64,000 nucleotides of DNA from Leptotrichia buccalis C-1013-b (GTDB taxonomy: Bacteria; Fusobacteriota; Fusobacteriia; Fusobacteriales; Leptotrichiaceae), in NCBI RefSeq assembly GCF_000023905.1, contig NC_013192.1, positions 2,046,001 to 2,110,000 of the forward strand. Reading direction: 5' to 3'. A model generated the notes under the pieces. The model saw only the letters and a program-made list of their open reading frames with translations, searched no databases and had not been told where the DNA came from. Positions 35,316 through 40,297 of the stretch are shown here, in pieces; the first letter of the stretch is position 1; each line of letters opens with the position of its first letter. The translations under genes and the position numbers were made by a program.

Positions 35316-36971
35316 TTATAATCCTATTATTTCCCAGTTATTATGGCTTTTTCCGTCAATTACACCATTTTTTACAGTTCGGATATAATCAATCATCATA
35401 TTCTGGATAGTTCCCTTTATATTTCCAATTGCTTCTTTTGATGCCCATAATACTGGTATTTCCTGCCCATCGAAAATACCGCCTTTTCTAGCCAGCTGCT
35501 CAAATCTGTAAGCGTTCATTCCAACTTTCAGTTTCATTTCAGGAGTTATTTTTGTTCCATTTACTAACATCAGATTGGTAATTTTACTGCCTTTTTCATT
35601 TCTTAAGTCAATTTTATATTTCACTCCGCCAAAAATATCAAAAGTTACGTATTTCCCGTTGGCACGTTCTGGATTATAGCGATATTCAGTATCTCCAGCC
35701 TGAATTGTGTCAAAATAGTCGGCAGCCCATTCCATATAGTCTTTTAACTGTTTTCCAGTCATTTCATAGATTGTAACATCTCCACCTGTGTAACGGTAGT
35801 TGTAAACTATGTCTTTTCTTCTGATTTTACCTTTGTCCAGTCTTACATTTTCATAATTGTATGCAAATGAAACAACGTCAGCACCACTGTAATAAAGTTC
35901 TACATCCGTTATGAACGAGGACATTCCTGTGTCTTTCCCAAATGCAGCCGATACACCGTAATGTTTTTCTTTTGAAACCATATCATTTAAAGTTTCTCCA
36001 ATCTCTTCGTCTGCAATAACACAAAGCCTGTGATGAAACGGCTTGTAGATTTCTTCAATTTTTTCATCAGATTCTTCATTTTTTACTGGAATTGTTGTAG
36101 AATCCTTACTTATTAATTTAATATTTTTACCATCAATTTCAAATTTCAAATCAACTTCTGAAACAAATGTTCCGTATCTGTGAGGCTCTGTAATAAGAAC
36201 TCCATTAATTATCTCTTTTGGAATATTCTGGTGCATATGTCCTGCCACAATCACATCAATTTCAGGAACCGCATTTGCCAAATCTCTAACTCCAGTTTCA
36301 GGAATCCCGTTTTCGTTTTCAATCCCCATATGAGCCACAACAACAATGGCATTTGCTCCTTCTTCTTTCAATTTTTTTATTTGCTTTTGAGCTTCTTTTA
36401 TAGGCGACACAAAATAAAAATCATTCAAATATCCAGTATCTTCTTCAAATTGTGCCGACATCGGAGTAGAAAGCCCAATAATCCCAATTTTTACACCTTC
36501 TTTTTCAATAATTGTCGTTGCGTCCAAATATCTGCTTTTGTCTTTTGAAAAATTAGTGTCATTTTCAGCATTCTCGTGATAATACAAATTAGCAGTTAAC
36601 TTTTTGAATTTCATATCCCGCAAAATATTCGATAAAGTTGGCATTCCAAAGTTAAATTCATGATTTCCTGGCACAAAAATATCATATCCCATATAATTTA
36701 ATATTTCTGGAATAGGATGTTTCGGTGTCATCGCAAACTTTTCTATCCAGTTATCCTGAATCGCATCCCCAACTTCAACTAAAATCACATTTTTATTTTT
36801 TTTCCTAATTTTTTTCACCAATGTTGAAATTTGTGCATAAGAACCTGATTTGTCCTCTTCATCAGCCGCATAGTTCCAAGCAAGTATCCTTCCATGCACA
36901 TCACTTGTTCCCAATATTTTTATACTTACTTCCTTTTTTTTCAAAGAAATCCCAGTATTTCCTGTTGTCAT
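35316..36971 (-). CDS. 5'-nucleotidase/metallophosphoesterase without signal peptide
   Basis: Two-domain UshA-type enzyme of 551 residues. The metal-binding motifs are SDVHG, VGDAIQD, PGNHEFNFG, VVAHMG and VAGHMHQN. The C-terminal substrate domain (about residues 340-530) contains YNYRYTGGDVTIYEMTGKQLKDYMEW. There is no signal peptide, in contrast with the second nucleotidase at 37954, so this one should be cytoplasmic. It would remove phosphate from nucleotides such as 2',3'-cyclic or 5'-monophosphates; the exact substrate is inferred. Confidence 0.9.
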   Translation of the reverse strand: MTTGNTGISLKKKEVSIKILGTSDVHGRILAWNYAADEEDKSGSYAQISTLVKKIRKKNKNVILVEVGDAIQDNWIEKFAMTPKHPIPEILNYMGYDIFVPGNHEFNFGMPTLSNILRDMKFKKLTANLYYHENAENDTNFSKDKSRYLDATTIIEKEGVKIGIIGLSTPMSAQFEEDTGYLNDFYFVSPIKEAQKQIKKLKEEGANAIVVVAHMGIENENGIPETGVRDLANAVPEIDVIVAGHMHQNIPKEIINGVLITEPHRYGTFVSEVDLKFEIDGKNIKLISKDSTTIPVKNEESDEKIEEIYKPFHHRLCVIADEEIGETLNDMVSKEKHYGVSAAFGKDTGMSSFITDVELYYSGADVVSFAYNYENVRLDKGKIRRKDIVYNYRYTGGDVTIYEMTGKQLKDYMEWAADYFDTIQAGDTEYRYNPERANGKYVTFDIFGGVKYKIDLRNEKGSKITNLMLVNGTKITPEMKLKVGMNAYRFEQLARKGGIFDGQEIPVLWASKEAIGNIKGTIQNMMIDYIRTVKNGVIDGKSHNNWEIIGL

Positions 36972-37021: not shown

Positions 37022-37429
37022 TTATTCTTTTTCTTTATTTTTATTTTTCCATTTTTCCCTAGCCTCATAAATGGAAAATTCTCTGCCATATTTTATTTCA
37101 TTCACTTCATCCTTAATATAAAAAATCTTTTCCAAATCAATCTCATAATCATTTGCAATCGCAATAATATAATAAAAAACATCAAATACTTCCTCTTCAA
37201 TTGTCCCTTTTATGTTTTTTCCATCGTATCTGACATTTTTTCTAATATTTTCAGCAAGTTCTCCAAATTCCTCAATTAATTTCAAAACGAGCCTTTGTCC
37301 ATTTTCTTTTCTTTCCTGTGGAGTTTTTTCTCTTTTTCTTTTACCTAAGGTCCCTTTTTCTATCTGTTTTATCAAATACTGTACTTCCTTAAGCGTCATA
37401 TCATCACCGTTATTATTTTTTTTATCCAT
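37022..37429 (-). CDS. MazG-like nucleotide pyrophosphohydrolase
   Basis: A 135-residue all-alpha NTP pyrophosphatase-like protein. The helices carry EEFGELAENIRKNVRYD and the second metal motif EEEVFDVFYYIIAIANDYEID, which match the MazG/dUTPase-like E-x2-E...E-x2-D pattern. ATG 37429 is used because AAGGAGG is placed correctly before it; the longer frame has no binding site. Members hydrolyse non-canonical or excess nucleoside triphosphates. Confidence 0.85.
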   Translation of the reverse strand: MDKKNNNGDDMTLKEVQYLIKQIEKGTLGKRKREKTPQERKENGQRLVLKLIEEFGELAENIRKNVRYDGKNIKGTIEEEVFDVFYYIIAIANDYEIDLEKIFYIKDEVNEIKYGREFSIYEAREKWKNKNKEKE

Positions 37430-37531
37430 AAAACTACCTCCTTTTTTTCTAAATTCTTTGGTATAAACACTTAAAATTAATGTTTTTATTTTACACAATA
37501 TACTGTTATTAATGAATTTTTTTCATAATTT

Positions 37532-37719
37532 TTATGTTTTTCTTTTTTTTACGTAAAGGGGATCAGTCGCCATCCCCTTTACAATCCCGGCTTGTCTAAG
37601 TATTTTTTTGAAATAAAAACTAAACTCGCTTTTTAATAAAGGCTGTTCCCGTCTCTTCAAATAATCTTAATTTCAATATTTTGAAAAAGCTCAGACAGTA
37701 GTTTTTATTTCAAAAAAAT
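37532..37719. repeat. Structured intergenic repeat, copy A
   Basis: A T-rich lead (TTATGTTTTTCTTTTTTTT) is followed by a perfect 11-bp hairpin, GTAAAGGGGAT (37553-37563) with ATCCCCTTTAC (37572-37582), with loop CAGTCGCC. Then comes a perfect 21-bp inverted repeat (37602-37622 and 37699-37719) around a 76-base loop that begins AACTC. A second locus at 57982-58119 has the same T-rich lead, hairpin with 8-base loop, and larger inverted repeat. No coding potential is seen. Confidence 0.7.
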
Positions 37720-37917
37720 CACGACATTTTTAGTTTATTTACAACAAAATAGTTTTATTAAAACATGAAACAAGCAAAATTTCGTTAAAGAAAAAATAAC
37801 TGTTTGAGATTTTGAAATATATTTTGAATTATACACAGTTATTTCAGTTAAAATAACTTTGGTTCAAAATCGAGTTTTATTTTTTCTTTATAAGAAAGTT
37901 TTGCGTAAAGCGGGGAT

Positions 37918-37945
37918 GCAAGGGCATGGCGTCTGATGCCCTTGC
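37918..37945. repeat. Palindrome related to copy A, inverted
   Basis: GCAAGGGCAT (37918-37927) and ATGCCCTTGC (37936-37945) form a perfect 10-bp stem. Read on the minus strand the loop is CAGACGCC, one base different from the loop at 37564-37571. The stem has matching changes on both sides. Between the two palindromes lies another 9-bp stem, AAATAACTG with CAGTTATTT (about 37794-37845). It also sits just after the nucleotidase stop and may act as a terminator. Confidence 0.65.
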
Positions 37946-37953
37946 GAAAAATA

Positions 37954-39741
37954 TTAATATTTGAAGATTACGTTTGTTGATTTCGGTCTTCCTACTTCTT
38001 TTTTCTCTTTCAAATAATCAATAAAGATTTTTGTGTCGCTTAAATGAGTGTCTGTTCCACGTTTTTGAGCTGTAATTTTTCCTAATGTTGTGTATCCATC
38101 TTTTCCTTGAGCGATGTATGAGTTTACGGCTAGCATGTAGGATTTTTTAGCATCGATTGGAACCCATTTGTTAGCTTTAAAGTCAAATACTTCTATTTTT
38201 TTAACTCTTGTTCCAAGGTTTCCTTCTTTTGTGGCTTCATATCTGATTCCTGCACCGTAAGGGAATGCTCCTGTTGATCCACCGTTTAATACATAGTCAA
38301 TTGCATCTTCTAACACCTGTTTTACTTCGGCACCTGTAATATCTGTTATGAATACTGTGTTTGATGTAAATGGTAACAATGAGTAGGCTTGATCATAAGT
38401 GAAATTTCCAGGATTTAGTGTAATTCTGACATTTCCTGCATTTACGATTACAAAGTCAACGTTTCCTGTTCCCATATTTCTTAATTTATGTAAAACTGAT
38501 TCGGCTACAAGTGTTGTTGCAAAAGAACCGTCTTTATTGTGAGGCCCTGGAACTCTGTTGTCTGATCCTCCTAAAATTTCTTCTGTAATTTTACCAACCG
38601 ATTTTTTCCCTAATTCTGTTTTTTCTTTTTGATATCGTTCAAGCAGTTTTTCTGTAACAGTGTCATTTTTTACAACTTTTATGTTTTTGTTATTTTTTAT
38701 AGAATTTATGATTACTGCTTTTTCTTTTTCGCCCAGCTGCACAACTTTTCCTTCAGCATTTTTTATTTCAAAAGTATCTCCAATTAGCACTTTCGGAGTT
38801 GGAATCAATTCTTTAATTACTCCATTCTTATCAAATTTTGCTTTCATTTCTCCCAATAAATATGAATAGTTCCACGCTTCTGCAATATAAACAGGATTTC
38901 CATCAGGTGAATTTACTTTTTTAGGATAATCTGGTTTTTCAGGAACTAGTCCAAATTGTTCAAATTCTTTTCCCAATAAATAATGCGTATCTCCAGATAT
39001 AATTAAATCAACTCCGTCAACTTTTTCCCCAATTTCAACATTTTTTTCATATCCAGCGTGAGACAGCACAATTATTTTGTTTATTCCTTCATCTTGTAAT
39101 TTTTTTACATATTTTCTAGCTGTTTCAACTTCATCTAGAAATTTCACATCGTCTCCAGGATTGGAAGATTCTTTTGTTTTTTTCACAACATCAATTCCAA
39201 TAATTCCAATTTTTTGTCCGCCAACATTTTTGATAAGGTAAGGTTTCCATTTTCCTTCTAAAATACTTCCTTTGTCAGGTACAACATTTGACGAAACTAT
39301 AGGTATAGTTAAAGCATCCAGAAATGATTTCAAAACTTTGTTTCCATCATCAAATTCATGATTTCCCAATGTAAAGGCGTCAAAGTTTATTACATTCATA
39401 AGCTCAGCATCAGCTTTTCCTTCAAATAGCGTATAATAAAGAGTCCCTGTTACTGCGTCCCCAGCGTGAAGAACTAAAGTATTTTTATTATTTTTTCTAA
39501 AATCCTTTATTTCCTGTGCTACTCTAGGAAGTCCGCCAATAGTTGCCGTAACTGTCTGACCATTTAATTTTAAAGGCATTTTTTCTTCTTCCAGATGTGA
39601 ATGGTGATCGTTAATATGAGCCACGTTTAGTTCAAATGTACTTGCTGTACTTCCTTTATTTCCCTTTTTTACTGTTTTTGCTTCCAAACCTACTGCAGAA
39701 AACAGCGATACTGCTAGACCTAATAAAAGTAATTTTTTCAT
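37954..39741 (-). CDS. Exported 5'-nucleotidase / UshA-like metallophosphoesterase
   Basis: A 595-residue periplasmic or surface nucleotidase. A signal peptide (MKKLLLLGLAVSLFSAVGLEA) is followed by the metal motifs VAHINDHHSHLE, HAGDAVTG, LGNHEFDDG, VLSHAGYE and ISGDTHYLLG, and a C-terminal substrate domain with VIVNAGNVR and the KDGYTTLG segment. ATG 39741 is used because TAGGAGGAAAAGTT precedes it. It would release nucleosides from extracellular nucleotides for uptake. Confidence 0.92.
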   Translation of the reverse strand: MKKLLLLGLAVSLFSAVGLEAKTVKKGNKGSTASTFELNVAHINDHHSHLEEEKMPLKLNGQTVTATIGGLPRVAQEIKDFRKNNKNTLVLHAGDAVTGTLYYTLFEGKADAELMNVINFDAFTLGNHEFDDGNKVLKSFLDALTIPIVSSNVVPDKGSILEGKWKPYLIKNVGGQKIGIIGIDVVKKTKESSNPGDDVKFLDEVETARKYVKKLQDEGINKIIVLSHAGYEKNVEIGEKVDGVDLIISGDTHYLLGKEFEQFGLVPEKPDYPKKVNSPDGNPVYIAEAWNYSYLLGEMKAKFDKNGVIKELIPTPKVLIGDTFEIKNAEGKVVQLGEKEKAVIINSIKNNKNIKVVKNDTVTEKLLERYQKEKTELGKKSVGKITEEILGGSDNRVPGPHNKDGSFATTLVAESVLHKLRNMGTGNVDFVIVNAGNVRITLNPGNFTYDQAYSLLPFTSNTVFITDITGAEVKQVLEDAIDYVLNGGSTGAFPYGAGIRYEATKEGNLGTRVKKIEVFDFKANKWVPIDAKKSYMLAVNSYIAQGKDGYTTLGKITAQKRGTDTHLSDTKIFIDYLKEKKEVGRPKSTNVIFKY

Positions 39742-40027
39742 AACTTTTCCTCCTAAAAAAAGATTTATATTTCTTAATTTAATTATAACTTGATTTCTCA
39801 AAAAAAGCACTAAAAATATATAAATTTTTTATAAATTAATAAATTTTAAATAAATTTTACTATATTTTAAAATAAAATAATGTTATAATGCACCAGATGA
39901 TTTCAAAATATATTTGAATTTTTTAACATCAAACTAATAAATTAAATAATATTGGGTTTATGTTTGGATAAAATAAATTTATTTTAAATTGTCAATAATA
40001 TAAAAATAGATAGAAGGAGTTGGTATA

Positions 40028-40297
40028 ATGAATTTTAGAAATATTATGAAAAAAATGATTTTAATTTTGGGAGTAATTGGAATTTCCACTACCTCTTTTT
40101 CAGCTTTTAGAAAAAACAACAAAATCGTATATGTAAAAAAGGAACCTTCTCGCAAAGTAAAGAAAAAGGCTAAAAAGAACAGACAGATTGTATACATAAA
40201 AAGAGAGCCTTCTCATAAAGTAAAAAAATATTCCAAGAGAAATAATAAAATCGTGTATGTAAAAAGAGAACCTTCTCGTAGACATAGAAAACACTAA
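40028..40297 (+). CDS. Small exported cationic repeat protein
   Basis: Only 89 residues: a signal peptide (about 1-28, MKKMILILGVIGISTTSFS inside), then three imperfect 21-23-residue repeats of the form NNKIVYVKKEPSRKVKKKAKK. The mature chain is extremely basic, rich in Lys and Arg with almost no acidic residues. No known family is recognised. A good GAAGGAG precedes the ATG, and a terminator follows, so it is a free-standing gene. It could bind nucleic acid, lipopolysaccharide or peptidoglycan, or act on membranes; these are guesses. Confidence 0.75.
   Translation: MNFRNIMKKMILILGVIGISTTSFSAFRKNNKIVYVKKEPSRKVKKKAKKNRQIVYIKREPSHKVKKYSKRNNKIVYVKREPSRRHRKH

Follow-up and report, generated by a model that had tools for sequence, protein, structure and literature searches.

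Structure of the element in the window

The window, a stretch of 64,000 nucleotides from the genome of Leptotrichia buccalis C-1013-b, carries at 37507-37960 one copy of a structured element, to which no strand is assigned as a whole. It lies between a MazG-like gene that starts near 37429 and a 5'-nucleotidase-like gene that ends at 37954, both on the minus strand and both named by eye from their translations. From left to right the homologous extent comprises a left outer arm, a hairpin (H1), two long stems (S1 and S2), a second hairpin (H2) and the stump of a right outer arm. H1 and H2 bound a 393-bp core that is free of genes, as an earlier note on this DNA had stated; the reading-frame list contains no open reading frame of more than 42 amino acids within it. 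In the neighborhood, two 5'-nucleotidase/metallophosphatase-like genes (35316-36971 and 37954-39810, minus strand) stand on either side of the MazG-like gene and the element, and an 89-amino acid frame (40028-40297, plus strand), whose start is signal-like and which contains three near-repeats of NNKIVYVKREPSRKVKK, looks like a small exported repeat protein.

The left outer arm (37507-37552, plus strand) was delimited by own-copy alignment and comparison of related copies. It is T-rich (TTATTAAT..TTTTTTC..CTTTTTT) and common to most copies, and its homology may extend outward to about 37462. A full-length match to the query 37480-37960 elsewhere in the same genome starts at query base 27 and runs at 81% over 455 bp. 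H1 (37553-37582, plus strand), the 'T' hairpin, was defined by repeat search, family alignment and pair counts; its arms, 37553-37563 and 37572-37582, form an 11-bp stem with 100% pairing around the loop CAGTCGCC (37564-37571). H2 (37918-37945, minus strand), the 'A' hairpin, was defined by sequence and pair counts. It has a 10-bp stem with arms GCAAGGGCAT (37918-37927) and ATGCCCTTGC (37936-37945), and its loop on the minus strand reads CAGACGCC.

Sequence, inverted-repeat search and pair counts on 19 short-tipped relatives placed S1 at 37594-37725 (plus strand). It has a GTC/GAC foot (37594-37596 / 37723-37725), a stem formed by a perfect 21-bp inverted repeat (37602-37622 / 37699-37719, 76 nt between) and a tip motif composed of AACTCGC (37623-37629) and GCTCAGACAG (37689-37698). 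S2, the stem of the inverted unit (37772-37905, minus strand; sequence, inverted-repeat search and own-copy alignment), contains a perfect 14-bp inverted repeat (37786-37799 / 37877-37890) and CTGTTTGAG at 37800-37808. Both hairpins and the 21-bp repeat had been reported in the earlier note; the further 9-bp stem that it listed was not detected as such, the 14-bp repeat being the clearest additional one. The right outer arm (37946-37960, minus strand; sequence, reading frames and same-place copies in relatives) is truncated and reaches into the stop codon of the nucleotidase-like gene (37954-37956), and the same-place copies in genomes G003 and G002 retain about 100 nt more of it. The 454-nt stretch folds as DNA at -77.5 kcal/mol (z = -8.6 against shuffles), and CAGWCGCC, the loop sequence of the H hairpins, occurs three times in the window, compared with 0.37 times in shuffles.

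The position of H2 directly behind the nucleotidase-like stop codon would suit a set of unrelated intrinsic terminators of the flanking genes. The earlier note had itself raised this explanation, along with a lack of further copies, as grounds for doubting a repeat family. It fails, since copies abound and no terminator-like site (GC stem followed by a T run) was found on either strand. As the sole explanation it is refuted by about 27 loci in the same genome with homology to the element, extending to the whole of it, and we regard it as hardly credible.

Copies and architecture in the same genome

The search with 37480-37960 returned 89 matching pieces. Merging by eye reduced them to about 27 loci, of which 24 were read along their whole length. 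Ten instances of the string ATCAGWCGCCAT exist in the genome, against none when it is read backwards; eight of the 10 lie in a hairpin and two do not. Full copies consist of one 'T' unit (H1, the linker CCCGGCTYGTCTAAG and S1) and one 'A' unit (H2 and S2), joined tail to tail. Likewise, where strict loops in the list for the genus face each other within about 500 bp, one is of type T and the other of type A. In many copies one half has been lost. Thus, the proposal of a structured intergenic repeat family with many copies stands, but that of a copy accompanied by a mirrored palindrome in an array does not, as the hairpins are the two ends of one element.

Many copies carry a CGTC motif at the S1 foot (TTGTC in the window copy). 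Several contain an extra, movable module (TTTCGC..GCGAAA and GTGCTACGCAC), whose position is the same in both unit types: at loci L002, L020, L034 and L008, TTTCGC..GCGAAA followed by GTGCTACGCAC takes the place of the 3' foot of H in both unit types. Blocks resembling this module are also found in the S loops of L014, L018 and L029. At L023 (near 389,600 of the genome), a short repeat of another kind, bounded by the inverted sequences GGGCGTGTCTGAAAACT / TTTTCAGACACAGCCT, lies inside the tail of an element copy and is a nested second repeat family.

All 24 examined copies lie between called genes, with three overlapping small frames of 71-95 amino acids. Their orientation within one-way gene pairs shows no preference (10 versus 9); four copies occupy convergent gaps and one a divergent gap.

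Covariation of the stems

The stems are kept by compensatory changes. In H (64 hairpins, 42 distinct), eight of 10 pairs have changed on both sides, with 91 double-changed cells versus 32.4 in shuffles, and 92.9% of the cells are paired; shuffles reach 73.7%, and sliding the partner gives 38-54%. In S1 (19 short-tipped stems) there are 23 double-changed cells versus 8.7 in shuffles, although the number of double-changed pairs (four) is not above that of shuffles (3.2; reached by 174 of 500). The claim that the loop is conserved while the stems covary is borne out, double-changed cells exceeding shuffles in both H and S. Copying plays a part as well: H2 at the window locus and the same-place H2 of G003 differ by three paired changes, and recombination with another copy could also account for these.

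Distribution, gain and loss in the genus

The strict loop is present in 12 of the 13 genomes of the genus and the H model matches in all 13, with 1 to 76 matches each when at most 150 candidates were scored per genome. At the window locus, G000, G003 and G002 have the complete element. Only the right half remains in G008 and G010, with a deletion between GTTTTT repeats, and a different element is found there in G001 and G004. It is absent from the syntenic locus of G006, and five more genomes have other neighbors at this place. Further presence/absence differences exist among G000, G002 and G003. The element is interspersed, with regular pairing of its units, and copies have been gained and lost between related species.

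Transposition marks in a sister subfamily

Genome G007 harbors a sister subfamily with the same two-unit plan; besides the query, it numbers about 40 copies, with identities of 83-96%. Its right unit resembles S1 of the window, its left unit another S type of the window genome. By extending 30 copies outward, common ends were found, GWCAGAGTAAAATAKTTAGGGG and CCCCTAAAATTTTTAAACCATC, which form imperfect terminal inverted repeats of about 22 bp. A search for these ends detected 52 right ends (at most two mismatches) and 57 left ends (at most three). Of the latter, 45 have a partner right end, the whole then spanning 428-489 bp; the elements measure about 468 bp. Thirty of the left-end loci were fetched, 29 of which include the right end. 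Among these 29 elements, exact 10-bp target-site duplications flank 23, duplications of 9 or 11 bp flank two, and four have none. A 10-bp target-site duplication is what a DDE-type transposase leaves, and we propose such an enzyme for G007 on the basis of these duplications. The elements of this subfamily are non-autonomous transposons resembling MITEs (miniature inverted-repeat transposable elements); at distances of 520-6000 bp none of the 57 left ends has a partner, so that no autonomous copy was found in this genome.

The outer ends of the window type differ from those of the G007 type. In the window copy and 24 window-type T/A pairs we found no target-site duplication and no clear terminal repeat, and the direct repeats near these 24 pairs do not adjoin consistent ends. 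Window-type copies are mosaic and nested in longer repeats.

We consider it probable, at roughly two in three, that 37507-37960 is an old, truncated copy of a MITE-like, non-autonomous transposable element in which two inverted hairpin units (H-S and S-H) are set within short outer arms. Double-stranded DNA would have been moved, by cut-and-paste or copy-paste, through a putative DDE transposase acting in trans, no gene for which was found, the window subfamily presumably having moved as its G007 counterpart did. The S-to-H strand of each unit may form a hairpin ending in a compact GC(GNA)GC tip; it may be this structure that is conserved, possibly for recognition in transposition or possibly to render intergenic insertions harmless.

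Alternatively, the H-S unit could itself be mobile as nicked single-stranded DNA through an HUH enzyme (Y1, RAYT-like), its inverted pairs corresponding to BIME-like doublets. Inverted pairing, intergenic location, the strand bias of the structure, compact tip loops and the occurrence of single units in many phyla are in keeping with such a route. The distribution of Y1 genes, however, does not follow that of the repeats: no Y1 match is found in G002, G003 and G010, which are rich in copies, while G005, G007 and G009 possess Y1 and 0 to 1 strict copies. On this distribution over the 13 genomes, Y1/RAYT was rejected as the mover. Moreover, the 10-bp duplications in G007 are at odds with IS200/IS605-type movement, which is not known to leave them, and we judge this route unlikely. 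As a separate observation, G007 (L084, L091 and L097) carries seven Y1 transposase genes with identical match scores and 158-amino acid frames, apparently the product of a recent burst.

The folded strand

Mismatches on the H-to-S strand are rich in pyrimidines (675 pyrimidine versus 253 purine pairs), so that the opposite strand shows purine pairs, G.A among them. Of 111 units, 96 have the better fold on the S-to-H strand with DNA energies and 100 with RNA energies; in a random-segment control with DNA energies, the reverse strand was better in 61 of 110. In the cross-phylum units, the tip of the S-to-H strand has a GC closing a G...A loop in 124 of 125, most of which is forced by the search pattern of the set. 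Among the Fusobacteria loci, GC surrounds a G...A loop in 32 of 74 and an A...A loop is found in 17, most others having longer loops. The DNA sequence d(GCGNAGC) forms a very stable mini-hairpin.

Strong covariation and better folding as RNA would also be expected if each unit were transcribed in the S-to-H direction and acted as a small RNA or 3' UTR element. Mismatches on this strand are biased to G.A and G.U; in 19 related S1 stems (alignment A2) almost every non-pair reads A.C on the H-to-S strand and hence G.U on the S-to-H strand, although these come from four columns that share their descent; and some half copies adjoin stop codons. Nevertheless, the wobble excess is small, with G.U versus A.C on the S-to-H strand at 63 versus 34 in isolated cells, 218 versus 149 overall and 9 versus 11 in H, and a preference for the strand of the neighboring genes is absent. 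The pair is symmetric, so that neither strand has both units in the same sense, promoter-like sites are at shuffle level, and Rfam provides no match (see below). We think a transcribed function unlikely and, short of proof, lean towards arms that act as DNA rather than RNA.

Comparison with known systems

The element behaves as a MITE. It is short (428-489 bp in G007), lacks a transposase gene and has many interspersed copies with shared ends. Terminal inverted repeats and a fixed-length target-site duplication are seen in the G007 subfamily and not in the window type. The one feature missing from the former is a found autonomous relative with the same ends (57 left ends, 6 kb). Such a parent is usual for MITEs, yet it is not required today, as it can be lost. 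Bacterial MITEs (reviewed in PMC10969869), for example MITEAba12, resemble the element in being short, gene-free, intergenic and interspersed, and the G007 subfamily in their terminal inverted repeats and target-site duplications; in contrast to them, most of the length here is made up of two covarying hairpin units, the tip is cross-phylum, and no parent insertion sequence was found.

REP, BIME/REPIN and CGTC REP sequences, as described in PMC3733652, share intergenic palindromes, inverted doublets and the CGTC at the S1 foot with the element. CGTC REPs are described there as having 8-9-bp stems, 4-5-nt loops and no known transposase, whereas the S stems are about 20 bp long, the units measure at least 80 nt and include a second hairpin, and there is no RAYT link. 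The units thus far exceed the 20-40-nt palindrome with an unpaired foot tag of REP/BIME (GTAG or CGTC), and in the 13 genomes there is no correlation with RAYT/Y1. Measured against PMC3733652 and PMC6006769, the element is REP/BIME-like in place and pairing and is not REP/BIME by size and partner enzyme.

Several database comparisons were made. The window has no match at gathering in Rfam 15, and 18 loci from several phyla gave nothing on the unit, the one match, sRNA-Xcc1, falling outside it (Rodentibacter locus L250, 1371-1456, 70 bits with a gathering threshold of 53). Plasmid and phage collections yielded no blastn match. A 17-letter loop pattern had 12 matches in viral contigs, but in no case did the stem agree (2-6 of 11 pairs), and these are attributed to chance. 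Readings as attC, retron or ribozyme were dropped by eye, there being no matching motif. The BOX and RUP repeats of pneumococcus are modular, mosaic, stem-rich and intergenic, and by this description the element is like them; its architecture differs. The names RUP and SPRITE appear in PMC10969869, in which a term search finds neither Fusobacteria nor Leptotrichia, and a term search of PMC2267715 finds no CTCGC string. No paper with the tip or H strings was found in the open-licence literature, a weak negative given that most subscription journals lie outside it; neither Rfam, a RAYT link nor an open-licence paper was found to describe the element.

The S tip beyond the genus

What the earlier note observed is right and belongs to something larger; the motif at the tip of the stem extends well beyond the genus. 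The pattern AACTCGCN{3,33}GCTCARACAGT matches in 27 of 98 Fusobacteria genomes, belonging to 10 of 29 genera, while reversed controls gave three matches in total; G009 has none. In several other phyla, too, the tip (AACTCGCT..GCTCARACAGT) is found, where it caps stems of unrelated sequence. In 84,980 species genomes, the 21-letter form AACTCGCTWCGCTCARACAGT occurs in at least 119 stretches versus about 0.5 expected by chance under equal base use. Taxa among the 80 matches listed include Bacteroidales, Flavobacteriales, Lachnospiraceae and other Clostridia, Nitrospira, Ralstonia, Variovorax, Pasteurellaceae, Patescibacteria and Gastranaerophilales.

The flanks of the tip pair with each other (mean score 19.2 versus 2.8 for foreign arms; at least 15 in 70 of 113 units versus 0), and the stem sequences around it differ from group to group. 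An inverted partner lies within 800 bp in nine of 124 units, always on the S side and at 228-278 bp, and these nine pairs follow the same tail-to-tail plan. The remaining 115 occur singly, which suggests that the unit may spread by another route. In the 70 of 113 units with a hairpin of 6 bp or more, the data support a 5' hairpin whose loop is complementary to the linker (4.21 versus 3.62 ± 0.10 nt), a feature not clearly visible in the window copy.

Conservation of the tip across phyla would also fit hairpins kept as host sites for a chromosomal protein (gyrase, nucleoid protein or nuclease), and REP roles of this kind are known (PMC3733652, PMC6006769). Within a single genus, however, copy numbers vary between 1 and 76 from species to species, and the S tip pattern has no match in G009; we consider host sites very unlikely.

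We tentatively suggest, at somewhat less than even odds, a domain-wide and so far undescribed superfamily of structured DNA repeat units. Each would comprise an H hairpin with a loop partly complementary to the linker, a long and freely varying S, and the invariant tip ACTGTYTGAGC-GNA-GCGAGTT on the folded strand. Units would be single or tail to tail in many phyla and mobile in at least one lineage, with the fold rather than the sequence being inherited. If so, this would be a mobile element in which the long arms of the hairpins change in pairs and the short tip remains constant across Fusobacteria, Proteobacteria, Bacteroidota and Clostridia, and a single protein or process would be expected to recognize the tip wherever it occurs. 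G007, which has 45 paired elements and clean duplications, would be a good place to seek the enzyme, and the 98 Fusobacteria genomes examined would allow a comparison of tip counts.

No repeated protein family accounts for the neighborhoods of the motif at 119 loci. A shared gene beside the tip was rejected, the larger clusters being common families or frames made by repeats; the largest, with 14 loci, is an ABC transporter by its sequence.
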